From Bacteroidia bacterium (lineage in GTDB: Bacteria > Bacteroidota > Bacteroidia > B-17B0 > Aurantibacillaceae), in NCBI GenBank assembly GCA_014378485.1, contig JACMNO010000110.1:1-64000 (forward strand): DNA of 64,000 bases. The letters run 5' to 3'. Below are positions 25,583 through 50,177 of the stretch, piece by piece. A program made the position numbers and the translations under genes. The stretch's first letter is position 1. Each line of letters starts with the position of its first letter. The notes beneath the pieces are model-generated. The model was not told where the DNA came from. It was given only the letters and a program-made list of their open reading frames with translations, and did no database searches.

Positions 25583-26749
25583 TTGGCGAATAAGATAAGA
25601 TATTCTGATTCAAAATACATTAAACTATTATTAGTTGCCATCTATATTGGAATTGCGCTTATAATTTGCCGTTACGCTAAAAAAAACGCCTACTATGATC
25701 TGGATATTGTAATGTACACTGCTTGTGCATTAGAGAACGAATCCATGTCTCATAAGCAATTACATGATGCAGCCTATGATCTTGCAAAAGATGAGTTGGG
25801 AGAAGGGAGATTTAGAAATATGATTGATAGTACAAAATACTATCGCCATTCTATTTACAGATCAGCAGAGAATTTTTATAGCCAGTTACCTTTTTACAGA
25901 ATAAAACCTTTATATGTATGTATTTTAAAAACAGCGAATTCTTTTGGGGTATCTCCTATTCTGTTTTCAACCTATGTTAATTTGTTGGCCTATCTTTCTA
26001 TCAGTATCGTTTTGTTGTACTACCTGATCCGTTTTATCGGATTCTACAAAGGCTGGTTGATCTCTTTCTGTACGATGCTATTGCCAATAGTTTTGGACAC
26101 TATTAAAAACAACACACCGGATATGTTGTCGTCGTTTTTTATATTGGTAGCTGTTATGTTATTAATGTCAGATTCAGAGTTCCGAAGAAACATAGCTTTT
26201 ATTTTATTTTGTTTGGCTGTATTTGTAAGACCCGAAAGCATTATTTTTGTGACTGCTTTTTGCGGCATTGCGTTTTTTTATAAGTTACCTGAATATTCCA
26301 ATAAATATTTAGTGGTATTATTTAGCACTTCGGCACTTTGTTATTTGTTTGTGTCCTTTTATTACCATGCATATCCCTGGACCTTATTATACAAGCATTC
26401 TTTCCTTGGCTATATACCTGATCTCAATAATGCAGATACCTCGCTCACCATTAATGGCTACATTCATGGACTGCGCTTCATTCCCAATACCGTTTTTTAT
26501 TCCGATTTTTTCCTGATCCTGCTATTTTTGGTTTTGCCATTTTTATTATATGCTAAAGCTTATTGGAAAACTAAATTATTTGTGGCAGCGCAGGTATTAT
26601 TAGTTTCAGTTATCATAAGAGTTATTTTATTTCCTGACCTATCCATTCGTTTTTATACAGGTGTCTTTCTTATTTCTGTTGTTTTGTTTTTCAGAATTTT
26701 ATTGGGAAATCAAAAACCGAAAGTTTCGAATAACTTCAATTCAAATTAA
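25583..26749 (+). CDS. Polytopic membrane protein, possible GT-C-type glycosyltransferase
   Basis: 388 aa with about ten TM helices (KLLLVAIYIGIALIICRY, ISIVLLYYLIRFIGFYKGWL, IAFILFCLAVFVRPESIIFV, LVLPFLLYA). The RPES motif in a TM-rich context, the large first loop and the mixed aromatic TM segments recall GT39/GT87-type lipid-linked glycosyltransferases, but no acidic DxD-like motif is decisive. TTG start, 5 nt after the dihydroorotase stop; the GT4 gene follows after 3 nt, so it is translationally linked to both. Probable role in glycan or glycolipid assembly, by context. Confidence 0.6.
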   Translation: MANKIRYSDSKYIKLLLVAIYIGIALIICRYAKKNAYYDLDIVMYTACALENESMSHKQLHDAAYDLAKDELGEGRFRNMIDSTKYYRHSIYRSAENFYSQLPFYRIKPLYVCILKTANSFGVSPILFSTYVNLLAYLSISIVLLYYLIRFIGFYKGWLISFCTMLLPIVLDTIKNNTPDMLSSFFILVAVMLLMSDSEFRRNIAFILFCLAVFVRPESIIFVTAFCGIAFFYKLPEYSNKYLVVLFSTSALCYLFVSFYYHAYPWTLLYKHSFLGYIPDLNNADTSLTINGYIHGLRFIPNTVFYSDFFLILLFLVLPFLLYAKAYWKTKLFVAAQVLLVSVIIRVILFPDLSIRFYTGVFLISVVLFFRILLGNQKPKVSNNFNSN

Positions 26750-26752
26750 AAA

Positions 26753-27814
26753 TTGCCATCTTCCAAACCAAATACTGTTATTATTGTTACTCCCGGTTTT
26801 CCTAAGGATGAGCAGGATACAACGTGTTTGCCGGCATTCCAGCAATTTGCTTTGGCGCTCAAACAAAATTTTTCAGAACTTACCTTTGTTTTAATTTCTC
26901 TTCAGTATCCATTTAAAAAAGGATGGTATATGTGGAATGGAATTGCTGTACATGCCATAGGCGGAAAAAACAAGAAACACATTTTTGGTCTAAATACAAA
27001 ACGGCTTGCAATGCAGAAACTGAATGAGCTGAAGGAAATTTATACCATTAAAGGATTGATTAGTTTGTGGTGTATTGATACTGCTTTGGTGGCGAATAAA
27101 TTTGCGTTGAGAAATAATTTCAAACATTTAATTTGGATAATTGGACAAGATGCAAAACCAACGAATGGTTTCGTGAAAAAAATAAAACCAAAGCCAGAGC
27201 AATTGATAGCGATGAGTGATTTTTTGCAGGAAGAATTTAAAAAGAATCATCAAATAGAACCACAGCATGTTATTACAAATGGCATTAATCCAAAAATGTT
27301 TGAGCCTTTAAATGTGAGAGAAAGATCAATAGATATTTTAGGGGCAGGCTCTTTAATTCCTCTCAAAAATTACAACTTGTTTATTGAAGTCATTGCTGAG
27401 GTTGTAAAACAGTATCCTTCGTTGACCGTTAATATTGCAGGGGACGGCCCCGAAAAAAATTCACTAATTGATTTGATAATCCAATATAAACTTCAAAATA
27501 ATATTGAGTTGATTGGAGTAAAAACTCATTTAGAGACTTTGAGTTTAATGAATCAATCAAAACTGTTTTTACATACTTCCCATTACGAAGGCAATTCTAC
27601 AGTTTTAATGGAGGCCTTGTATAGTGGCTGCCGGGTTATTTCTACACAGAAACTGAGTAATGATTCGGTTAAAAATTTACACGTTAAATCAATAAAGACG
27701 GATTTGGTGAATTGTATTCTAGAATTGTTATCTAAAAAAAACGAACCTGAAAGGGTAACGTTTAACACGATGGACGATTCAGCAAAAAAAATTATGCAGC
27801 TGTTATTGAGTTAG
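26753..27814 (+). CDS. GT4-family glycosyltransferase
   Basis: 353-aa GT-B-fold enzyme. N-terminal VIIVTPGFPKDEQD; the C-terminal nucleotide-sugar domain has LGAGSLIPLKNYNLFIEVIA, VNIAGDGPEKNSLIDLI, and the EX7E-type HTSHYEGNSTVLMEALYSGC. TTG start, directly after the membrane protein. Its end overlaps the convergent 27803 gene by 12 bp. Acceptor and donor unknown. Confidence 0.87.
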   Translation: MPSSKPNTVIIVTPGFPKDEQDTTCLPAFQQFALALKQNFSELTFVLISLQYPFKKGWYMWNGIAVHAIGGKNKKHIFGLNTKRLAMQKLNELKEIYTIKGLISLWCIDTALVANKFALRNNFKHLIWIIGQDAKPTNGFVKKIKPKPEQLIAMSDFLQEEFKKNHQIEPQHVITNGINPKMFEPLNVRERSIDILGAGSLIPLKNYNLFIEVIAEVVKQYPSLTVNIAGDGPEKNSLIDLIIQYKLQNNIELIGVKTHLETLSLMNQSKLFLHTSHYEGNSTVLMEALYSGCRVISTQKLSNDSVKNLHVKSIKTDLVNCILELLSKKNEPERVTFNTMDDSAKKIMQLLLS

Positions 27815-28882
27815 TTCTTGTAAAGCATTTTCTATTTGCAAAGCAATTGCTTTATCGCTGCATTTATTCTCAAAGTGGTTTCTGATCGTTTCTTTTTGAG
27901 CATTGGTAAATTCGCGATCTAATGCTTTATTTAATTTTGCTGCCAATTCTAGTTCATTTCTCGGCCTGAACTGTTCTTTTTCATCCAACCCATTTAGTAA
28001 AAAATCAAATGCCGCAATGTTTGATACAATGGGAAACGTGCCGCAAGCCAATGCCTCTATCAATGAGTAACCACTTCCCTCGTATAAACTACAGGAAATA
28101 AAAACATCAGCACTGTTTAAAAGAGCTTCTATTTGTGTTTTCGGAATAGCGCCCTTAAATACAATATAATCATTCAATTTATTCGTATTGCAATAGGCTT
28201 TCAAGTCATCTTCTGAGTCGTTACTTGTATAATAAATAGAAACACAAAAGTCTGAACGCTTTAATTTCAAAATGCCAACAGCTTTTAATAAGGTAATAAA
28301 ATTTTTGTTTTCGTTTAACCTTCCAATGCACACTATTTGTTTGATAGCATTTGTGTGTTTTTGCCCTGATACATTAAAGTCAGAACTTCCTTCAACTACT
28401 TCGTAAATTTTGTTGACAGATGAAATACATTTCTTTTGTAGAAAAGGTAACGCCATTTCTTTTCCGTTAAATAAATAGGCATCTATCCATTTATCAGCCC
28501 ATGGCATGAGAACAGCTTTTTTTCTCAAGTACGTTTTTTCGGCGTGATGTTGCAAAATAACTTTTGATCCTGAAAACAATTTTATAATTGCGGCTTCTAA
28601 AAAATAATCTAATCCATGAATAATAACGTATTTACATTTGTTTTTTTTGATGTAATTAATGGCAGTTTTTAAAAACGACCATCTGTTTAGTTTTTCAGAC
28701 TTTAAATAAATAGAATGATACTTTTCATTTAACTCCAAATTATTATTTAATAAATAATGGACGATATGCATCTTTCCAAGTTCAATTTTATAGGATAAAG
28801 AAGAATATTGCTCTTTTAACAAAGCTTCTTTATCTTTATATTGAGAGGAAAAGAGATTAATATATACTATTTTTTTTTTCAA
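27803..28882 (-). CDS. GT4-family glycosyltransferase (opposite strand)
   Basis: 359 aa. Signatures: VCIGRLNENKNFITLLKAVG, the ADVFISCSLYEGSGYSLIEA donor-site EX7E region, and VIFKGAIPK-like central strands. TTG start at 28882 (poly-A coding stretch KKKIVYINLF). It is the only minus-strand gene within the 22-38 kb block and lies tail-to-tail with the preceding glycosyltransferase. The 96-bp spacer to the radical SAM gene at 28979 holds divergent promoters. Confidence 0.85.
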   Translation of the reverse strand: MKKKIVYINLFSSQYKDKEALLKEQYSSLSYKIELGKMHIVHYLLNNNLELNEKYHSIYLKSEKLNRWSFLKTAINYIKKNKCKYVIIHGLDYFLEAAIIKLFSGSKVILQHHAEKTYLRKKAVLMPWADKWIDAYLFNGKEMALPFLQKKCISSVNKIYEVVEGSSDFNVSGQKHTNAIKQIVCIGRLNENKNFITLLKAVGILKLKRSDFCVSIYYTSNDSEDDLKAYCNTNKLNDYIVFKGAIPKTQIEALLNSADVFISCSLYEGSGYSLIEALACGTFPIVSNIAAFDFLLNGLDEKEQFRPRNELELAAKLNKALDREFTNAQKETIRNHFENKCSDKAIALQIENALQELTQ

Positions 28883-28978
28883 GTATTTTTTGCACTAAAA
28901 TTAAGAGAATTAATCAGCCAACGTATATGTTTTGTAAAGATTTTAATTAACTTTATTACACTTTTTTTACTTTGATCA

Positions 28979-30394
28979 TTGAAACACACTGTTGTACTAT
29001 ATAATCCCGAAGCTGTTTTTTATACGATGCCATTAGCTTTACTGGCTATCGGTTCGGTTTTGGATGCCGATAAGTATAACGTGGTAATTATAGATGGCAG
29101 GTTGGAATCTGATCCGATGATCAAAATTAATGCGGCTCTTCAGAATAATGGTGTTTGTTTTGCAACTACGGTCTTAACAGGAAGCCCTATAAAAGACGCT
29201 GTTAAAATCTCGAGAGCTGTTAAAGAAAAATTTCCTAATATGCCTGTTGTTTGGGGTGGCTGGCATCCTTCCTTGTTTCCAAAGCAAACACTTGATGAAT
29301 CTAGTGTGGACGTTGTGATTAAGGGCCAGGGCGAAAATACATTTAAAGAATTACTTGATCGATATGTTGCCAATGTCACATTAGAAGGCTTAAAAGGTAT
29401 TTATTATAAAGCAAATGGCGTTTATACAGAGAATGCCGAAAGGATAATGGAGGACATTAATAATTTTGCACCTTTTAATTACGACTTGATTGATGTAAAA
29501 GGTTACATGAATTTAAGTGGCAGAAAACAACTGGATTATATTTCATCACAGGGATGTCGTTTTCGTTGTTCCTTTTGTGCCGACCCATTTATGTATAAGC
29601 GAGGGTGGTATGGTTATAGTCCAGAAAGGATGGGAGTTGAAATAGAATTGTTGTGGAACAAATATAAATTCGAACATATCCATTTACAAGACGAAACATT
29701 TTTCACAAACAGCAAACGCGTAAAAGCAGTGGCGGAGGAATTCATCAAACGTAAATTACCTGTTAGTTGGTTTGGAACCATGCGTGCGGATCAGGGAGTT
29801 CGTTTGGATGATGAGGTTTGGAAATTATGTAAAGAGTCGGGACTTGAACGCGTGATGATAGGCATGGAAGCAGGGACACAGGAAATGCTCGACTGGATGC
29901 AAAAAGATATTAAGCTGGAACACATTTATGAAGCCGCAAAGCAATGTATTAAATATGACATTGCGATTAATTTTAGTATCATCGTTGGATTTCCGGGAGA
30001 AACGGATGAAAGTATTTCTGAAACTTTGCGTATGGTAAAGGAATTACGAAAAATGAGTAGCAAATTTAATATGAGCATTTTTTATTATAAACCTTATCCG
30101 GGAAATAAAATTGCGGATGAATTATTGACTAACGGTTACCGGTTTAATTCAACACTGGAAGAGTGGAGCAATTTTGATTACGTGGGAACTAAAAAAAGCG
30201 AATGGATCAGTGAAGAAAAGATACGTGAGATCGAAAACTTTAAATTCTACCAAAATATGGCCTATAATGATCGTACGCCTGCAAAATTTCTTTTCCAGGA
30301 ATTCGCCAAATGGCGTATTGAAAACAAGATTTATCATTTCCCGATCGAACGAAAGTTAAAAGAGTGGTTAAAGCCCGTTCAAAAAATGTCGTAG
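28979..30394 (+). CDS. Cobalamin-binding-type radical SAM protein, copy 1
   Basis: 471 aa. Residues 1-130 form a Rossmann-like cobalamin-binding-type domain (TVVLYNPEAVFYTMPLALLAIGS ... VVWGGWHPSL ... VIKGQGENTFKELL) without the DxHxxG motif. The radical SAM core begins with C193/C197/C200 (CRFRCSFC) and shows MIGMEAGTQEMLDWMQK and FSIIVGFPGETDES. Such enzymes methylate or rearrange unactivated carbons. TTG start. Strongly paralogous to the 31224 product: shared VDG/IDG-x-LE-x-DP, GG-W/Y and GQGENTF/GPGDNTF. First member of the radical SAM array; a methyltransferase gene follows 2 nt later. Confidence 0.88.
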   Translation: MKHTVVLYNPEAVFYTMPLALLAIGSVLDADKYNVVIIDGRLESDPMIKINAALQNNGVCFATTVLTGSPIKDAVKISRAVKEKFPNMPVVWGGWHPSLFPKQTLDESSVDVVIKGQGENTFKELLDRYVANVTLEGLKGIYYKANGVYTENAERIMEDINNFAPFNYDLIDVKGYMNLSGRKQLDYISSQGCRFRCSFCADPFMYKRGWYGYSPERMGVEIELLWNKYKFEHIHLQDETFFTNSKRVKAVAEEFIKRKLPVSWFGTMRADQGVRLDDEVWKLCKESGLERVMIGMEAGTQEMLDWMQKDIKLEHIYEAAKQCIKYDIAINFSIIVGFPGETDESISETLRMVKELRKMSSKFNMSIFYYKPYPGNKIADELLTNGYRFNSTLEEWSNFDYVGTKKSEWISEEKIREIENFKFYQNMAYNDRTPAKFLFQEFAKWRIENKIYHFPIERKLKEWLKPVQKMS

Positions 30395-30396
30395 TA

Positions 30397-31224
30397 ATGG
30401 AAGATCTTCAAAGTTTTATAAAAGTACCGGTAGATCATAAACTATCTGTTGATGGAATTTATAATATTGCTCCGGATTCTTTTAATGAGCGACTTTTTTC
30501 ATTTCTTGATCGTTTTACTGAAATACAAACTAAAGAAAAAAACTATCGCTTACCATTTCATTTATATGAGCAATTCCCTAATTTAACTATTCAAGAATTG
30601 GCTTCAGAGACCTTTACACGTAAACAGGATCTGAAAATTTTAGACAAGCATTTTCAAAAATATTTAAGCTCAACTAATCGTGTGCTTGAAATTGGGGGAT
30701 GGAATGGCTGGTTAACAAATCGCCTTTCGGATAGAGGTTTAAAGGTTATTACTGTTGATATTTTTGAAGATGAAGAAAATGGTTTAAGATCTAAAAAGCA
30801 TTATAAAAACAGTAATTGGTTATCTGTTCAAACAGATTTATTAGATACAAGTATTTATAATTCTCAATTTGATATGATCGTTTTTAATCATTGCTCGCAG
30901 TTTTTGACCGATCCATTAATATTGGTTGAGAAATATAAATTGTTATTAAACAGAAATGGAGTTTTGCTGATCCTTGGAAATACGTTTTATAAAAACACAG
31001 ATGCAAAAGCGTCAGAAGTTTTGAAAACTGATATGTACTTTAAGAAAAACTATGATTTCAATATCAGGTTCTATCCTTCCAAAGGTTATTTTAGTTATGA
31101 AGACTTCGATCATTTTTCGAAAAATAACTTTAAATTTATATCCTATAAATTCTCTGTACCCGGAATAATTAAAAAATTTCTGAAAAAAGAAAAAAGTGGA
31201 ATTTTATATTTTATCAATCCATAA
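30397..31224 (+). CDS. SAM-dependent methyltransferase, copy 1
   Basis: 275 aa from the ATG at 30397, 2 nt after the radical SAM stop (an ORF start at 30364 overlaps that gene). Class I Rossmann core with motif I VLEIGGWNGWLTNRL, the acidic GLKVITVDIF and motif IV FDMIVFNHCSQFL. N-terminal about 90 residues are unrelated. Its stop overlaps the next radical SAM start (TAATG), so the pair is co-translated. Substrate unknown. Confidence 0.8.
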   Translation: MEDLQSFIKVPVDHKLSVDGIYNIAPDSFNERLFSFLDRFTEIQTKEKNYRLPFHLYEQFPNLTIQELASETFTRKQDLKILDKHFQKYLSSTNRVLEIGGWNGWLTNRLSDRGLKVITVDIFEDEENGLRSKKHYKNSNWLSVQTDLLDTSIYNSQFDMIVFNHCSQFLTDPLILVEKYKLLLNRNGVLLILGNTFYKNTDAKASEVLKTDMYFKKNYDFNIRFYPSKGYFSYEDFDHFSKNNFKFISYKFSVPGIIKKFLKKEKSGILYFINP

Positions 31225-32720
31225 TGTCGATTCTTTTATTTAATCCACGGGCTACTCATCACAATCCACGCATTCCAAACAGTGTGTTGCAAATTGCGGC
31301 CAGTATTGATGGTACTTATGAATGGGTTATTGTAGATGGGAATTTAGAAACAGATCCGTGGGCTGTGATCGAAAATTATTTATCCTCAGGAAAAGTCAAT
31401 TATTTTGCATGCACAGTTATGCCAGGCCCACAATTAAAACAGGCTATTCCTTTCACAAAAAAGATCAGGGCAAACTATCCGCATATTAAAATAATTTTTG
31501 GAGGTTATTTTGCATCCAATCAATATGCGGTTAATTTAAATTCGGGTTATGTAGATTATATTGTTAGTGGCCCTGGTGATAACACCTTTCCAAAATTAAT
31601 TAATGCTATCGAAAATAATTTGCCGGTTGATGGGATCAAGAACCTTATCTATAAAAAAGATGGACAAATTATAAAAACCGCCAAAGAAGAATTATTAGAT
31701 CTGGATAAGTTACCGCCTTTACCTTACAATAAATTAAACAACTTTTACCCTCTTCAAAAAATATTACCAAAAACGTATTTGGGAAAAAAAACCATTGCGT
31801 ACCACAGTAGTTTTGGTTGCCCTTTTACCTGCTCGTTTTGTGCAGTTGTTCCTATTTACAATGCCCGATGGAAAGGCAAGTCAGCTCAGGGAATTTACAA
31901 TGATGTAAAATTATTGAAAGACACTTATCAGGCAGATTCCATAGAGTTTCATGATAATAACTTTTTTGTGTCTGAAAAACGTACAATTGAATTTTCTAAA
32001 CTCATTGAAAAAGAAAACATGGTTTGGTGGGGTGAGGCGCGCATTGATACCATGGATAAATATAAAGATGAATCTTTAGCGGCTATAAGAAAATCTGGCT
32101 GCAAGATGATATTTTTTGGAGCAGAGACAGGCAATGATGAAGTTTTGAAAAAAATGGACAAAGGTGGTACTCAAACGGGAGAACAGATTTTAAGGTTTGC
32201 CGAACGTCTAAAAAAATTCGACATTATTCCTGAATATTCTTTTGTATTAGGAATTCCGGGAGATACAGAGGAGCAGGTAAACAAACAAATTGATGAGGAC
32301 ATTGCTTTCATTAAAAAAGTAAAAGCTATTAATCCTAAAACAGAAATTATTATTTATACATATAGTCCCGTACCGACAGAAGGATCTGATATGTATAAAC
32401 AGGTTTTGGATAGCGGATTTAAGTTTCCTGAAACATTAGAAGACTGGATCAGCCCGGCGTGGGAAAACTTTGATCTTCGAAAAAACCCTTTAACTCCGTG
32501 GTTAAAGCCATTTATGATAGATAAGATCAAACAGTTTGAAACAGTACTGAATGGTTACTATCCTTCGAATTCGGATATACGTTTGACAACTTCAAAAAAG
32601 TTCATTTTAAAAACATTAAGTAGCTGGCGGTATAAAAGCAGTGTGTATTCGTTCCCAAAGGAAATCAGTTTTTTACAAAGGGTTTGGAAATACCGTCAAC
32701 CTGAAACAGAAGGATTTTAG
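31224..32720 (+). CDS. Cobalamin-binding-type radical SAM protein, copy 2
   Basis: 498 aa. N-terminal cobalamin-type domain (SILLFNPRATHHNPRIPNSV ... IIFGGYFAS ... IVSGPGDNTFPKLI), then the 4Fe-4S ligands C199/C203/C206 (CPFTCSFC), FFGAETGNDEVLKKMDKGG and EYSFVLGIPGDTEEQV. A clear paralogue of the 28979 product, with an HHN-rich N-terminus of its own. Start ATG overlaps the upstream stop; the 32722 methyltransferase starts 1 nt after its stop. Confidence 0.88.
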   Translation: MSILLFNPRATHHNPRIPNSVLQIAASIDGTYEWVIVDGNLETDPWAVIENYLSSGKVNYFACTVMPGPQLKQAIPFTKKIRANYPHIKIIFGGYFASNQYAVNLNSGYVDYIVSGPGDNTFPKLINAIENNLPVDGIKNLIYKKDGQIIKTAKEELLDLDKLPPLPYNKLNNFYPLQKILPKTYLGKKTIAYHSSFGCPFTCSFCAVVPIYNARWKGKSAQGIYNDVKLLKDTYQADSIEFHDNNFFVSEKRTIEFSKLIEKENMVWWGEARIDTMDKYKDESLAAIRKSGCKMIFFGAETGNDEVLKKMDKGGTQTGEQILRFAERLKKFDIIPEYSFVLGIPGDTEEQVNKQIDEDIAFIKKVKAINPKTEIIIYTYSPVPTEGSDMYKQVLDSGFKFPETLEDWISPAWENFDLRKNPLTPWLKPFMIDKIKQFETVLNGYYPSNSDIRLTTSKKFILKTLSSWRYKSSVYSFPKEISFLQRVWKYRQPETEGF

Positions 32721-32721
32721 A

Positions 32722-33399
32722 ATGCTGGATCGTTTTCAAAAAATATATATGCAAACCTTTGCCAAGCCCTATGTGCTTTGGTATTTAAAAAAAGAAAGAA
32801 CAGATACAGTTCGTGATTTTAAGTTAATTATCAAACCAACTGTTTTCCATCCCAAATTCTTTTTCAGCAGTATTTTTTTATTTGATTTTATTTCTACTTT
32901 AAACTTGGCAGGAAAACATTTTTTAGAAATAGGTTGCGGATCAGGCTTAATCAGTTTATTGGCACATCAAAAAAAAGCAATAGTAACAGCTTGCGATATA
33001 AATGATGCCGCTGTTGATTGTGCAAAACTGAATTTTGAAAAAAACTTCGCAATGGAAATAACAAATGTTTCTGTATTAAAAAGCGACTTGTTCGATGCTA
33101 TTCCTGATTCTAAATTTGATATTATAGTCATTAATCCCCCTTATTTTTTTGAGGATGTTAAAACCGATGATCAGCTGGCGTGGAATTGTGGAAAAAATGG
33201 CGAATATTTCATTAAATTGTTTTCAGGATTACAGCATTTTATTCATGCCAAAAGTAAGGTGTATATGATTTTGGCCGACAACTGCGAGATCGACAAAATT
33301 AAGCAAATTGCAAAAAGCAATCTATTAGAATTTCATTTAATTGTTCAAAAAAAGATCAAATGGGAGAATAATTTTATTTTTAAAATTGATCCTATTTAA
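32722..33399 (+). CDS. SAM-dependent methyltransferase, copy 2 (NPPY type)
   Basis: 226 aa from the ATG at 32722 (the ORF extends upstream into the radical SAM gene). Motif I FLEIGCGSGLISLLAHQKKA and the motif IV INPPYF are those of N-methyltransferases such as the HemK/PrmC and RlmG/RsmC group. In this context the target is more likely the pathway product than rRNA or release factors, but that is inference. Confidence 0.82.
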   Translation: MLDRFQKIYMQTFAKPYVLWYLKKERTDTVRDFKLIIKPTVFHPKFFFSSIFLFDFISTLNLAGKHFLEIGCGSGLISLLAHQKKAIVTACDINDAAVDCAKLNFEKNFAMEITNVSVLKSDLFDAIPDSKFDIIVINPPYFFEDVKTDDQLAWNCGKNGEYFIKLFSGLQHFIHAKSKVYMILADNCEIDKIKQIAKSNLLEFHLIVQKKIKWENNFIFKIDPI

Positions 33400-33431
33400 T
33401 GTATCTTAGTTGGTATTAAAACTATGACAAT

Positions 33432-34370
33432 TTGATTCAAACGTTTACTTTAACCTTAATTCAAAAAGATGTATTAAAGACTTTATTATATTTTGACGTA
33501 TTTAATTATCCGTTAAAATTTAATGAGGTGTTTTACAATATGCCCGTGCGTATTAGTAAAGAAGATCTCAGTGACAATCTGCAATGTTTGATTGAGGAAG
33601 GATTTATTAAGGAAGAAAAGAGCTTTTATCTTCTTTCATCGTCGTCCGTTGATATTATAGACCGCCGTTTAAAAGGAAATGCAGAGGCTTCAGAAACCAT
33701 GCATAAAGCCTATTATTTTAGTAAAAAAATCGCTTCATTTCCTTTTATTTCAGGAGTTTGTATTTCAGGAAGTTTATCTAAAAATTATTATGATGAGCAT
33801 AGCGACATTGATTATTTTGTGATCACAAAAGCAAACCGTTTGTGGATCTGTCGTATGGTCTTCATTCTGTATTATAAAACACTATCTAAAAAAGAAAAAA
33901 ATAATTACTGCCTGAATTATTTTATTTCGGAAGCTGATTTACTTATCCCTGACAAAAATGATTTTGTAGCAACTGAGCTGGCGTATTTACTACCTACGGT
34001 TAATTATTCTATGTACAAACGTGTATTAAAAGAAAATAGCTGGTACAAGAAGAAATTTTTAAATAAGGGAGAATTGCCCGATTTGAATTGTATTGAACCA
34101 CCAAACCCTTGGTATAAAAAAGCCATAGAATTTATGTTTTATGGTAAATTTGGCGATCGGGTTGATGATCAATTATTGTATATCACATTAAAGCACTGGC
34201 AAAGAAAATATCCGGAATTAAGTCAGGAAGATTTTGAACTTCAATTTCGTTCCAGGAAAAATGTATGTAAATATCATTCAAAAGGTCATCAGAATAAGGT
34301 GTTGCTTTTATGGGAAGAAAAAATAAAATTGTTTGAGAAAAAGTTTGATGTTAGTTTAGATTGCCAGTAA
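33432..34370 (+). CDS. Nucleotidyltransferase-domain protein with N-terminal winged-helix-like region
   Basis: 312 aa, TTG start. Residues 10-80 resemble a winged helix (KDVLKTLLYFDVFNYPLKFN ... LSDNLQCLIEEGFIK). Residues 105-135 carry a pol-beta-type nucleotidyltransferase motif GSLSKNYYDEHSDIDYFVIT with D125/D127. The remainder is helical. It could activate a small molecule or sugar by NMP transfer, or be an MNT-type modifier; no HEPN partner is present. It sits between the second and third radical SAM modules. Confidence 0.7.
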   Translation: MIQTFTLTLIQKDVLKTLLYFDVFNYPLKFNEVFYNMPVRISKEDLSDNLQCLIEEGFIKEEKSFYLLSSSSVDIIDRRLKGNAEASETMHKAYYFSKKIASFPFISGVCISGSLSKNYYDEHSDIDYFVITKANRLWICRMVFILYYKTLSKKEKNNYCLNYFISEADLLIPDKNDFVATELAYLLPTVNYSMYKRVLKENSWYKKKFLNKGELPDLNCIEPPNPWYKKAIEFMFYGKFGDRVDDQLLYITLKHWQRKYPELSQEDFELQFRSRKNVCKYHSKGHQNKVLLLWEEKIKLFEKKFDVSLDCQ

Positions 34371-34426
34371 GATTCTAAGTATCAAATGAAGTTGACATAT
34401 ATATACTTATTAAAACGTCTGCTATG

Positions 34427-34446
34427 ATTTGCGAGATCTGCGGGAA
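34427..34446 (+). repeat. Dispersed repeat copy (GATTTGCGAGATCTGCGGGA)
   Basis: Same family as the arm at 24284-24302 and likewise ends just before a start codon (ATG at 34453). A reading frame that starts at 34429 is repeat sequence, not gene. Confidence 0.65.
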
Positions 34447-34452
34447 ACGAAA

Positions 34453-35928
34453 ATGAAAATCCTTTTTACTCATAGTTATTTTTTAAGATTTGATTCCAAG
34501 CAATTTAAAACTGCGATGCCTTATCCGCCTTTGGGCACATTGTATGCGATGTCTTATTTAAGGGAACATGGTTATGAAGTGAAACTATTTGATTCCATGT
34601 TTTGTTATTCTGCTAAGGATATCAGATCTACCATTGATGAATTTAAACCGGATATTTTTATCAGTTACGATGATGGTTTTAATTATCTTACCAAAATGTG
34701 TCTTACGAATATGCGGGAGGCTTGTTTTGATATGCTGGCTTATGCAAAATCCAAAGGATGTGAGGTGATTGTTTCCAGTTCGGACGCTACGGATCATTCA
34801 ACTGAATATTTAAAGCAAGGTTCAGATGTTGTGGTTATTGGTGAGGCGGAGCAAACAGTATTGGAGTTATGCAATGCTTTTAAAGAAGGTAAGTCTATTG
34901 ATTCCATTCAGGGAATTTCGTTTGCAAAGAATGATGAACTTATCAAAACAAAACCAAGATTAGTAATAAAAGACCTCGATATATTACCACCACCGGCCTG
35001 GGATTTGATTGATATTTCGGAGTACAAAAATATGTGGATGCAAAACCACGGATACTTTTCGTTAAATTTTGTGACAACCCGTGGATGTCCTTATAAATGT
35101 AACTGGTGTGCAAAACCAATTTATGGTAACCGCTATAATTCGCATAGTCCTGAAAATATAGTTTTAGAAATAAAAAAATGGCAGCAAAAATTTGGTTTTA
35201 CACATATTTGGTTTGCAGATGATATTTTTGGGTTAAAACCTAACTGGCTAAAGGATTTTGAATATCACATCATAAAACAAAACGTTAAGATCAATTACAA
35301 AATACAAAGCCGCGCTGATCTGTTATTAGAGGAAGATAATATTAAACACTTAGCAAATAGTGGCTGTACAATGGTTTGGATGGGAGCAGAGAGCGGTTCT
35401 CAAAAGATACTCGACGCCATGGATAAAGGTATAAAGGTAGAACAGATTTATGATGCTACGCGCTTACTAAAAAAACATAAGATCACTGTTTCTTTATTCC
35501 TGCAATTAGGTTATTTAGAAGAAACAATAGATGATATAAAGATGACTATAAAGATGGTAGAAGATCTGTTGCCGGATGACATTGGTATTTCTGTTTCTTA
35601 TCCTCTACCCGGGACTTTATTTTATGATAAAGTAAAATTACTCCCGATATCCACTGGCATACAAGGTAAAAGTAACTGGATAGATAGCGATGATTTGGAT
35701 ATGTTATTTAAAAACACCTATCACAAGGATTTCTATAAGCAATTGCAACGTTATATTCATCGCCGATATAGAAAGCAAATGGGTTTGTACTCAGCCAAAA
35801 AAATATTTTCTCAACCATCCAAACAGCATTTTAAAAATATAGTATCGCTACTCAAAATAGTACCACAGGAATATTTTGAAAAACGAAAACTTAAACAAAT
35901 TGAACCCAATGCAACCGCAGACTTTTGA
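34453..35928 (+). CDS. Cobalamin-binding-type radical SAM protein, copy 3
   Basis: 491 aa from the ATG at 34453 (MKILFTHSYF). The N-terminal domain has the BchE/P-methylase-like layout (AMPYPPLGTLYAMSYLREHG ... VVVIGEAEQTVLELC), then C212/C216/C219 (CPYKCNWC), MVWMGAESGSQKILDAMDKG and LFLQLGYLEETIDDI. Paralogous to the 36711 product (both begin MKILFTH-YFL). It overlaps the 35909 methyltransferase gene by 20 nt. Confidence 0.88.
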   Translation: MKILFTHSYFLRFDSKQFKTAMPYPPLGTLYAMSYLREHGYEVKLFDSMFCYSAKDIRSTIDEFKPDIFISYDDGFNYLTKMCLTNMREACFDMLAYAKSKGCEVIVSSSDATDHSTEYLKQGSDVVVIGEAEQTVLELCNAFKEGKSIDSIQGISFAKNDELIKTKPRLVIKDLDILPPPAWDLIDISEYKNMWMQNHGYFSLNFVTTRGCPYKCNWCAKPIYGNRYNSHSPENIVLEIKKWQQKFGFTHIWFADDIFGLKPNWLKDFEYHIIKQNVKINYKIQSRADLLLEEDNIKHLANSGCTMVWMGAESGSQKILDAMDKGIKVEQIYDATRLLKKHKITVSLFLQLGYLEETIDDIKMTIKMVEDLLPDDIGISVSYPLPGTLFYDKVKLLPISTGIQGKSNWIDSDDLDMLFKNTYHKDFYKQLQRYIHRRYRKQMGLYSAKKIFSQPSKQHFKNIVSLLKIVPQEYFEKRKLKQIEPNATADF

Positions 35929-36691
35929 TGGCTATGCACAAACCTATGATGAACACTTTACTCATTCTTTAATTGGTATTGCTCAGCGAACGCAGGTTTA
36001 TAATCAATTATTAAAGAGTATTTCTTTTAATCAAAAATCAGTTCTTGAAATTAATTGTGGAACAGGTGAGGATGCTTCCTGGTTGGTGAAGCAAGGTGCA
36101 AATGTTTTGGCAACTGATATTTCAGAAGGAATGATTGATGTGGCTAGAAATAAACCTACAAACAATTCAATTAATTTTAAGGCTCTCGCCGCACAGGATA
36201 TTTCATCTTTAGCCCCAAACACTTACAATATCATTTTCTCAAATTTTGGCGGATTAAATTGTTTGAATTTAAATGAAATCCAAAAATTTAGAAATGATTG
36301 TACCCAACTTCAGTATAAATCTGATCAACTGGCTTTTGTAATTATGAGCACTAAATGTTGGTGGGAGCGTGTATATTTTAGTTTAAAAAATGAGAAGCCA
36401 AAATCTATTCGCCGTCAAAATAATGATGGTGTTGAAACAAATATCAATGATATTCATTTTAAAACTTATTATTATAGTCCATCTAACTTGAAAGAATTGT
36501 TTAAGGAAAATTATAATTGCATCAATGTTAAGCCGATTGGTCTCTTCATACCGCCATCTTATTTAGAGCCTTATATTGAAAAACGGAATAGATTATTTGG
36601 TGTTTTGAAATTACTGGATAAATTATGTGCGCGTTTTTCCGTTTTTTCAAATTACGCGGATCATTACTTAATTGTTTTTGAGAAGAAATAA
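35909..36691 (+). CDS. SAM-dependent methyltransferase, copy 3
   Basis: 260 aa from the ATG at 35909 (MQPQTFDGYAQTYDEHFTH), which lies within the last codons of the radical SAM gene. Motif I VLEINCGTGEDASWLVKQGA, motif II VLATDISEGMIDVARNK and IIFSNFGGLNC place it with UbiE/BioC-like small-molecule methyltransferases. Next to a radical SAM gene, as in modules 1 and 2. Confidence 0.83.
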   Translation: MQPQTFDGYAQTYDEHFTHSLIGIAQRTQVYNQLLKSISFNQKSVLEINCGTGEDASWLVKQGANVLATDISEGMIDVARNKPTNNSINFKALAAQDISSLAPNTYNIIFSNFGGLNCLNLNEIQKFRNDCTQLQYKSDQLAFVIMSTKCWWERVYFSLKNEKPKSIRRQNNDGVETNINDIHFKTYYYSPSNLKELFKENYNCINVKPIGLFIPPSYLEPYIEKRNRLFGVLKLLDKLCARFSVFSNYADHYLIVFEKK

Positions 36692-36710
36692 TGATGTACT
36701 TTTATAAGAG

Positions 36711-38096
36711 ATGAAGATCCTTTTTACACACGGTTATTTTTTGAGCGAAGATCCAAAAGAACTTCAGATCATGCGACCATACGTGCCTTTGGGAATTTTG
36801 TACATTTCTGCTTTTTTAGAAAAAAATGGTTTTGAAAACGAGGTGTTTGATTCTACTTTTTCAACCTTAGATAAATTGAAAGAAAAAATTCTAGACACAA
36901 AGCCGGATGCGATTGCGATCTATACTAATTTGATGACGAAACTCAATGTGTTGAAGATCATTAAATTCATCCGATCCGAATCGACTTTACAAAATACGAA
37001 AATAATTCTAGGCGGACCCGAAGTACGGAATTACGCAGAAAATTTTTTAAACTATGGCGCTGACTTTATCATAATTGGCGAAGGTGAAGAAACTACTTTG
37101 GAATTAATAACTGCTTTAAACTCTTCGACTCCGCTCAGAGTGACATTACATTCCATAAAAGGCCTCGCCTATTTAGAAAACGGAAAAGTGATCACAACAC
37201 CCGAACGCGTTTTAATTAAAGACATAAACACATTACCATTTCCTAACCGAAAAAAAATTGATTTCGTTCCATATTTAAACGGATGGAAAACTCATCATGG
37301 ATATAGCATGATGAGCGTGAATACTATGCGCGGTTGTCCATACACTTGTAAATGGTGCAGCCGGGCGGTATATGGCGGCACCTACAGAAGGCGCTCACCT
37401 CAATTGGTAGCACAGGAAATGAAGCATATTAAAGACACTTACAATCCTGATATGATCTGGTTTGTTGACGATGTATTTACAATCCACCACAAATGGTTGA
37501 CAGAATTTGCCGAGGAAGTGAAAAAACAGGATGCCGTAATTCCCTATGAAATTATTTCCCGCGCAGATCGTTTAAACGAAGAGGTGATTAAAACATTAAA
37601 AGCCAGTGGCTGTTTTAGAGTTTGGGTGGGAGCTGAAAGTGGGTCTCAAAAAATTATTGACGCTATGGACAGACGCGTGGATGTGATGCAAACCCGTCAC
37701 ATGATCAATCTTGCAAAGCAGCATGGACTCGAAGCAGGTACATTTATAATGCTCGGTTATCCCGGAGAAACTAAAGAAGATATTAAAGAAACGATTGAAC
37801 ATTTGGTGCAGTCAAATCCTTCGCAATACACAATCACAATCGCTTATCCTATAAAAGGAACGGAGCTTTACAATGAAGTTAAAAATGAATTCCTGGATCA
37901 GCGCTTGGAATGGGAAACATCAACAGATAGAGATATTGATTTTAAACGTACCCATCCCAAACAGTATTATCAGTATGCTATTCAGTGGGTGATGAATGAA
38001 GTATATTTAAAAACAAAAAATAAAAATCTTTTGAAGGTTCCATACTTAAAATTAAAATCTCTGAAGTACCAATTGCAAATGGAGTTGAACAAGTAG
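36711..38096 (+). CDS. Cobalamin-binding-type radical SAM protein, copy 4
   Basis: 461 aa. N-terminal cobalamin-type domain (MRPYVPLGILYISAFLEKNG ... IILGGPEVRNYAENFLNYGA), C209/C213/C216 (CPYTCKWC), VWVGAESGSQKIIDAMDRR and GTFIMLGYPGETKEDI. Last gene of the array. Residues about 138-146 are encoded by a copy of a dispersed repeat (37122-37145), giving SSTPLRVTL where the paralogue at 34453 has a segment shorter by about four residues. Confidence 0.88.
   Translation: MKILFTHGYFLSEDPKELQIMRPYVPLGILYISAFLEKNGFENEVFDSTFSTLDKLKEKILDTKPDAIAIYTNLMTKLNVLKIIKFIRSESTLQNTKIILGGPEVRNYAENFLNYGADFIIIGEGEETTLELITALNSSTPLRVTLHSIKGLAYLENGKVITTPERVLIKDINTLPFPNRKKIDFVPYLNGWKTHHGYSMMSVNTMRGCPYTCKWCSRAVYGGTYRRRSPQLVAQEMKHIKDTYNPDMIWFVDDVFTIHHKWLTEFAEEVKKQDAVIPYEIISRADRLNEEVIKTLKASGCFRVWVGAESGSQKIIDAMDRRVDVMQTRHMINLAKQHGLEAGTFIMLGYPGETKEDIKETIEHLVQSNPSQYTITIAYPIKGTELYNEVKNEFLDQRLEWETSTDRDIDFKRTHPKQYYQYAIQWVMNEVYLKTKNKNLLKVPYLKLKSLKYQLQMELNK
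37122..37145 (+). repeat. Dispersed repeat embedded in a coding region
   Basis: TCTTCGACTCCGCTCAGAGT followed by GACA. Its reverse complement matches the pattern TGTCAnnCnGAGCnnAGTCGAnGG seen at 38107-38131. It is in frame inside the fourth radical SAM gene. Confidence 0.55.
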
Positions 38097-41943: not shown

Positions 41944-42031
41944 GGGCGTGCCGCGAAAAGCGGCCAGGCTTTCCGTTTCAATCTTTTTGTAAAGGAGGCA
42001 CAAAAAGGATTTTCACTTCAATCCTTCACGC
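41944..42031 (+). repeat. GGGCGTGCC-family dispersed repeat, copy B
   Basis: GGGCGTGCCGCGAAAAGCGG, then CAGGCTTTCCGTTTCAATCT, spacer AAAGGAGGCACAAAAAGGAT, then TTCACTTCAATCCTTCACGC. Forms an inverted pair with copy C around the dyad at 42039-42121. Confidence 0.65.
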
Positions 42032-42038
42032 AGGTATG

Positions 42039-42121
42039 TCGTCATCTCGAGGTATGATGCGATCTTAAACACAGTTATACTGTAGTGAGATTGCTTCATA
42101 AAGGAACATTCATAATGACGA
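42039..42121. repeat. GTCATnnCGAGG-type palindromic repeat between copies B and C
   Basis: TCGTCATCTCGAGGTATGAT..GCGATCTT on the left is matched in reverse by TGAGATTGCTTCATAAAGGA..ATGACGA on the right. It resembles the widespread CGTCATTGCGAGG...AAGCAATCT hairpin repeat. Confidence 0.55.
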
Positions 42122-42122
42122 T

Positions 42123-42215
42123 GCATGAGCAATTGTAGTGGAAATCCTTTTGCCTGCCTCCTGCAAAAAATTGAAACAAAAAGTGCGACCCGCTGCCTTT
42201 TTGCGGGGCATGCCC
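42123..42215 (-). repeat. GGGCGTGCC-family dispersed repeat, copy C (reverse)
   Basis: On the minus strand: GGGCATGCCCCGCAAAAAGG, CAGCGGGTCGCACTTTTTGT, TTCAATTTTTTGCAGGAGGC, then AAAAGGATTTCCACTACAAT. Same block order as copies A, B and D. Minus-strand ORFs across 42013-42301 are products of this repeat. Confidence 0.6.
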
Positions 42216-42402
42216 AAATATTTCTTATGAAATGTAAAATAATTACCAGAAAAAAAGGCACAAAAAAAGGGTAAGCTACTTTCATCGCACCGCTCAACCA
42301 TCTACCCTTGCTATGTTCCCATCCTGGGGGATTTGACAGGAGCTGGTCGTGAAAGACTTACCCGCCGCAAAAGTATCAAATTTATTTCATTAATTGAGTA
42401 AT

Positions 42403-49846: not shown

Positions 49847-50177
49847 TGTCGATTTTTTTTATTTTTCACTCGTATGGCTTTTCAGAACACGCCCCGTTTT
49901 TGATGGTCTCTGGTCTCCATATAATTTTGGTCATTTTAATAAAACTTACTTATAACTTTTCCAACAGCCATTAGCGCGGTTTCAAACGTTTTCTCCAAAT
50001 AGCTGCTGTCAAAGCTAAATGTTTAACGGACATTTGCAAAGTAAAATAATGGTCTTTCGCAAAACGAGTGCTTTTGTAAAACGCTTATTTTTCTGCTCGC
50101 ATCTTTGTTAGCAGATGATATGTCATGTGCTTATTTATTTTTGTCGTGCTCTCTACCGAGTGAGTAACTGTAACATA
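49847..50177. other. Intergenic stretch, no gene seen
   Basis: 331 bp between the cupredoxin gene start and the end of the phosphatase gene. It has no ORF of note and no clear terminator hairpin; the AAAACG(AG)TGC-type imperfect repeat near 50062-50085 is weak. Confidence 0.4.

Follow-up and report, generated by a model that had tools for sequence, protein, structure and literature searches.

Why should one bacterial locus carry four cobalamin (B12)-type radical S-adenosylmethionine (SAM) enzymes side by side, interleaved with three methyltransferases and a nucleotidyltransferase, and what could such a set produce? The question is raised by a 64,000-nucleotide (nt) stretch of contig JACMNO010000110.1 from a Bacteroidia bacterium, referred to here as the window, in which the array occupies positions 28979-38096. 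We find a widely conserved and apparently undescribed cassette that is built from known enzyme superfamilies and lies in glycan loci, and on balance we favour its interpretation as a surface-glycan biosynthetic cassette, one that probably yields a chemically unusual cell-surface building block. Among the papers listed in our literature searches there was no description of a B12-radical SAM (rSAM)/methyltransferase/nucleotidyltransferase core in glycan loci, which does not in itself establish its absence in print. The first-pass annotation of this DNA had described an array grown by module duplication and guessed at a methylated glycolipid or secondary metabolite as its product; that interpretation is partly supported.

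A conserved and co-inherited gene set

The array is real: its open reading frames (ORFs) were confirmed as eight co-directional genes on the + strand in the order rS1-MT1-rS2-MT2-NT-rS3-MT3-rS4, where rS denotes a B12-rSAM enzyme, MT a methyltransferase and NT the nucleotidyltransferase. The nine genes announced earlier do not agree with the sequence or with the scheme that accompanied the count, both of which give eight. A search of 60 relatives, the genome of the window included, detected NT in 16, and the 15 other NT neighbourhoods (relatives' loci carry L numbers below) present rS2-MT2-NT-rS3-MT3-rS4 in full or in part. The flanking gene pyrC is upstream in five of these 15 (L017, L022, L023, L024 and L025), and carB is downstream in six (L017, L019, L021, L022, L023 and L024). 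When a named genome collection was searched, a single-sequence NT query confirmed nothing and an NT alignment profile gave 498 relatives, of which 80 were kept, including Tenacibaculum, Kordia, Dokdonia, Flavivirga, Flavobacterium sp. CF136, Ohtaekwangia, Ignavibacterium and Kapaibacterium. The gene order recurs from Flavobacteriaceae through to Ignavibacterium, and the succession of the array genes exceeds chance, with rS3 directly following NT on the same strand in 71/80 cases, NT following MT2 in 25/30, MT2 following rS2 in 24/33, MT3 following rS3 in 55/74 and rS4 following MT3 in 36/63.

The genes also occur together. In a sample of 247 genomes from the class, NT is carried by 37, rS3 by 33, rS2 by 27 and rS4 by 23, with one match each; NT accompanies every rS3 and every rS4 as well as 26 of the 27 rS2 genes, and all four are present in 20 genomes. 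Fisher p values for joint presence range from 1e-20 to 6e-37, with the genomes taken as independent and kinship ignored. At the thresholds that we chose to separate orthologs from paralogs (1e-100 to 1e-110), the exceptions are one genome with rS2 and no NT (G110) and four with NT and no rS3 (G074, G146, G154 and G204). The array parts are split over different contigs in ten NT-positive genomes. Searching 15 relatives with rS4 at E 1e-15 produced 18 matches, all of them array members, and none in eight array-less genomes. Strict single copy is contradicted by a second NT gene in L042 and a second rS3 gene in L057. Genes of fetched loci were called as longest ORFs, so that small genes and starts are unsure and the NT of L083 was lost, and loci L017-L031 and L032-L041 share some contigs. 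As judged from genome comparison, NT, rS2, rS3 and rS4 with their methyltransferases are shown to be a co-inherited set, and the neighbourhood, whose conservation had been left to be surveyed, is kept across relatives. The core is rS2-MT2-NT-rS3-MT3-rS4; rS1 and MT1 are an accessory unit, with rS1 orthologs at 76% in L028 and 77% in L038.

Ancestry and architecture of the array enzymes

In a tree of 58 rSAM rows subsampled from this phylum (only nine of them outside rows, with several long branches and a midpoint root), rS1, rS2, rS3 and rS4 each form one clade (support 100/98 to 100/99). The two paralogous pairs that had been recognized in the window, rS1 with rS2 and rS3 with rS4, are recovered as 100/100 groups, each on one side of a branch, and other rSAMs of the phylum, BchE rows among them, fall outside the array clades. 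The rS1 clade has four rows, and rS1 was seen in few loci. Since four separate ortholog clades extend across the phylum, the duplications are older than the split of the sampled classes. Growth by module duplication thus holds for the deep past only and is misleading for the array itself, whose rS1-rS4 belong to phylum-wide ortholog families and whose rS1 and MT1 are accessory; by these phylogenetic relationships, the array is inherited from old families and not newly grown.

The accessory rS1 (28979-30394) and the core enzymes rS2 (31224-32720), rS3 (34453-35928; ORF called from TTG 34429) and rS4 (36711-38096) all have a Radical_SAM domain above the Pfam cut-off and carry CxxxCxxC, a motif kept among relatives in 4/4 rS1, 32/33 rS2, 73/74 rS3 and 44/45 rS4 proteins. 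For the B12-binding domain (PF02310; cut-off 32.1 bits), rS1 (51.2 bits) and rS4 (59.2 bits) pass the gathering score and rS2 (27.3 bits) and rS3 (27.2 bits) fall short of it, at E about 4e-6; this agrees with the original description of four B12-type rSAMs. The AlphaFold model of rS2 (predicted local distance difference test score 87) confirms a complete B12-rSAM architecture at the level of prediction: OxsB, AprD4, MgmA and TsrM match most of its length, and identity to the solved OxsB, AprD4, TsrM, CysS, TokK and MgmA is 11-16%. OxsB is a ring-contracting enzyme. Because the nearest solved folds include the dehydratase AprD4 and OxsB alongside methylases, the fold does not establish methylation by the array rSAMs, nor, since AprD4 shares it, does it alone settle whether they bind or use cobalamin.

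Searches of PDB sequences with the rSAMs gave weak matches only, to AprD4, 9ccb, CysS, OxsB, TokK, TM_1862 and RimO. None of the four reached an NCBIfam equivalog cut-off among the best 25 families where more matched; the top scores were 152 bits for rS1, 110 for rS2, 146 for rS3 and 175 for rS4, on models whose cut-offs are at least 481. No known pathway is therefore assigned, and assignment by NCBIfam is rejected, consistent with the first reading that no described pathway matches. A plasmid origin was likewise rejected, as rS4 gave 114 plasmid records by tblastn, all below 60% identity and the best listed at about 26-27%. In one relative, rS3 is fused to a methyltransferase domain in a single 727-amino-acid (aa) protein (L169:4741-6921).

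By Pfam, MT1 (30397-31224; Methyltransf_23/11; ORF called from GTG 30364), MT2 (32722-33399; MTS, 63 bits; ORF called from GTG 32641) and MT3 (35909-36691; ORF called from TTG 35876) are class I methyltransferases, SAM-dependent in the case of MT1 and MT3. MT2 is PrmC/HemK-like in Pfam and NCBIfam, and its NPPY motif is kept as NPPY/F in 29/30 relatives. A cluster related to MT1 is present in 19 loci, often directly after rS4. The tight coupling reported for the methyltransferases was reproduced from the translations: MT1 starts (ATG 30397) 2 nt past the rS1 stop, MT2 (ATG 32722) 1 nt past the rS2 stop, and MT3 (ATG 35909) inside rS3. In addition, rS2, starting at 31224, shares 1 nt with the MT1 stop, and 19 nt separate MT3 from rS4. 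The stated spacing of less than 65 bp applies between NT and rS3 only with an rS3 start at TTG 34429; counted from ATG 34453, the two are 82 nt apart.

The nucleotidyltransferase and its glycan context

NT (33432-34370), in which a winged helix is combined with a nucleotidyltransferase fold, varies least in its presence among the genes of the array. The suggested check against PF01909 gave its only Pfam match, a weak one (23.1 bits against a cut-off of 21), and a PDB sequence search found no relative: its rows were those of ribonucleotide reductase and of 2rff, at E above 0.2. The protein carries a nucleotidyltransferase core with the aminoglycoside-type G[SG]...DxD motif, and its nearest solved core is that of an antibiotic nucleotidyltransferase. 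Some relatives have NT fused to an initiating phosphoglycosyl transferase (Bac_transf), and others have it fused to a GT4 glycosyltransferase. Where NT occurs without rSAMs, the loci are capsule-type and also contain Wzy_C proteins and an initiating transferase.

On the flanks in relatives there are Wzx-type proteins and a weak match to Wzz, glycosyltransferases of the GT4, GT2 and GT87 types and FkbM methyltransferases, along with a 2-oxoglutarate oxygenase, a polysaccharide deacetylase and SPASM rSAMs; an ATP-binding cassette (ABC) exporter (cluster 11) adjoins the array in marine members. In a profile search, a glycosyltransferase or initiating transferase was detected in 44/56 array loci against 1/20 control stretches, and a flippase, exporter or ligase in 26/56 against 0/20, the profiles having been built from the array-flank genes themselves, which is a source of bias. 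The 56 loci are those left of the 80 named ones when 24 under 15 kb were dropped, and the 20 controls were placed by hand in 17 genomes. Together, the glycosyltransferases, the exporters and the NT fusions around the array point to an exported surface glycan.

In the window itself, the GT4 pair reported upstream is present by Pfam, with GT4a (26753-27814, +) a recurrent neighbour and GT4b (27803-28882, -) convergent with it on the strand opposite to the array; no flippase was identified by Pfam. The convergent pair recurs in 8/80 loci, Ignavibacterium L085 included, and the GT4a cluster in 27 loci. In Ignavibacterium (L079 and L085), rS2-MT2 lies downstream, behind this pair, just as the pair precedes the array in the window. 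The hydrophobic membrane protein before GT4a (25583-26749, +) has no match in Pfam or NCBIfam; from its composition and the GT87 genes at the same place in relatives, where one adjoins pyrC in L017 and L022, it is possibly a GT-C-type glycosyltransferase. The outer flanks are pyrC (dihydroorotase, 24312) upstream and carB (38859) downstream, both named from reading their sequences, with no family search.

Several further observations were made around these loci. A GT4-NT fusion adjoins an APH-like kinase gene in L199 (L199:507-1229 and L199:1291-3294). SPASM-type rSAM proteins of about 350 aa, an additional radical enzyme of the system, accompany the array in several relatives, within it or next to it, and are absent from that of the window; four were assigned by Pfam (L024:10530-11576, L080:8166-9209, L079:19841-20884 and L033:2152-3231) and one by length and place only (L029:10128-11180). 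Seven loci (L044, L047, L053, L074, L098, L102 and L104) have an amidohydrolase-like gene (cluster 17; about 388 aa) near NT, and in five of them it adjoins methyltransferase cluster 18. An AsnB-type amidotransferase was suspected beside the array in several loci, and the one scanned (L084) proved to be an acetate-CoA ligase. Just past carB, two oppositely oriented Flavo-1 RNA matches adjoin a small signal recognition particle RNA gene (41958-42039, -; 42121-42194, +; 42265-42370, -), and a DUF805 cis-regulatory RNA match lies at 49859-49925 (-).

Proposed pathway and alternative explanations

All that goes beyond co-inheritance and context is what we infer from them. The array product is likely to be all or part of a glycan that is assembled on a lipid carrier and exported through either a Wzx-type flippase or an ABC exporter, which sharpens the earlier guess of a methylated glycolipid or secondary metabolite. 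In such a pathway, NT would nucleotidylate a sugar or polyol unit, whether free, nucleotide-bound or polyprenyl-bound; rS2, rS3 and rS4, joined here by rS1, would carry out radical steps on it; MT2, MT3 and MT1 would add methyl caps; GT4a, GT4b and other transferases would lengthen the unit; and the flippase or ABC exporter would take it out of the cell. In our view it is about as likely as not that the three to four B12-rSAMs edit the carbon skeleton of one such unit, by C-methylation, deoxygenation or rearrangement, with MT1-MT3 capping its O or N atoms. The role of NT is more doubtful. It might attach a nucleotide to a hydroxyl on the building block or on the lipid-linked sugar, providing the rSAMs with a nucleotide handle. 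Or it might, at initiation, pass to the glycan a group that bears a nucleotide or a phosphate, and its fusions to the initiating transferase and to GT4 would fit group transfer at that step. The nucleotide handle is drawn by analogy from fosfomycin synthesis, in which Fom3 acts on a cytidylylated substrate (PMC8158854, in part). The most ambitious version, a pathway spread over the whole phylum with three to four rSAMs working in series on one glycan unit held by a nucleotide or polyprenyl handle from a new type of winged-helix nucleotidyltransferase, and with surface sugars of a new class, carbon-branched or rearranged in their skeleton, as the outcome, we consider unlikely as a whole.

Other products would account for some of these features. 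Natural-product pathways typically combine B12-rSAM enzymes and several methyltransferases, marine members have ABC exporters next to the array, and 12 of the 56 long loci have no detected glycosyltransferase, all of which would suit a diffusible secondary metabolite or modified lipid that the glycosyltransferases merely decorate. Moenomycin and gentamicin enzymes are named in part of PMC8992657. However, no carrier-protein, synthase or ligase recurs with the core among clusters present in at least seven loci, and the capsule-type setting of rSAM-less NT speaks for a glycan, so that we regard this explanation as rather improbable. LicD-type proteins use a nucleotidyltransferase fold, and NT could instead work in the manner of the LicD-type phosphocholine transferases, placing a phospho-group on the glycan, with the rSAM/methyltransferase set making the head group. 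The fusion partners of NT, which act on lipid-linked sugars, and the several methyltransferases, suited to a methylated head group, are compatible with this, but it is made improbable by the lack of a Pfam LicD match, by a nearest solved core that is an antibiotic nucleotidyltransferase, and by the lack of a cytidylyltransferase or kinase recurring with the core at the same depth of at least seven loci.

Modification of a protein or peptide, as in ribosomally synthesized and post-translationally modified peptides (RiPPs), or production of a phosphonate, as in the PhpK and Fom3 pathways, is very improbable. It is suggested by 95 bits for rS2 on TIGR03975, a model of RiPP C-methyltransferases with a cut-off of 282, and by 172 bits for rS4 on PhpK (cut-off 600), yet both scores are far under their cut-offs. 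The packed genes leave gaps too short for a precursor gene, which together with the low scores led us to reject the RiPP route, and the phosphonate route was rejected because the host genome, at about 89% completeness, gave zero matches to phosphoenolpyruvate mutase (PepM).

B12-radical SAM enzymes are among the largest poorly explored enzyme groups. In this cassette, the conserved gene order and the shared occurrence link three to four of them to a single pathway, culturable genera included, with NT in about one in seven of the sampled class genomes. An open enzyme family thereby becomes a genetic system that can be tested, and the cassette predicts an unfamiliar surface sugar in many environmental Bacteroidota. 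Uncharacterized B12-rSAM members far outnumber characterized ones, according to part of PMC8992657.

Comparison with known systems

The solved enzymes OxsB, AprD4, TsrM, CysS, TokK and MgmA stand at the 11-16% identity to the array given above. These enzymes work singly, or within antibiotic or cofactor pathways that have one product, and are not known to form linked sets of three to four in polysaccharide loci. Among the family models, for rS1-rS4, respectively, BchE (TIGR02026) gives 152, 105, 146 and 175 bits against a cut-off of 481, HpnJ (TIGR03471) 124, 110, 128 and 145 bits against 578, and PhpK (TIGR04479) 116, 109, 109 and 172 bits against 600, with true BchE rows of the same phylum outside the array clades. 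In the fosfomycin pathway of Fom1 and Fom3, a small substrate receives a nucleotidyl group and is then methylated by a B12-rSAM (PMC8158854, in part); the likeness to the array is one of analogy only. The host genome gave no PepM match. Wzx/Wzy capsule and O-antigen loci differ in that, as far as our literature searches show, no B12-rSAM/methyltransferase/NT core has been described there, but they share with the NT and array loci of relatives the glycosyltransferases, Wzx-type flippases, a Wzz-type protein, the initiating transferase and Wzy_C.

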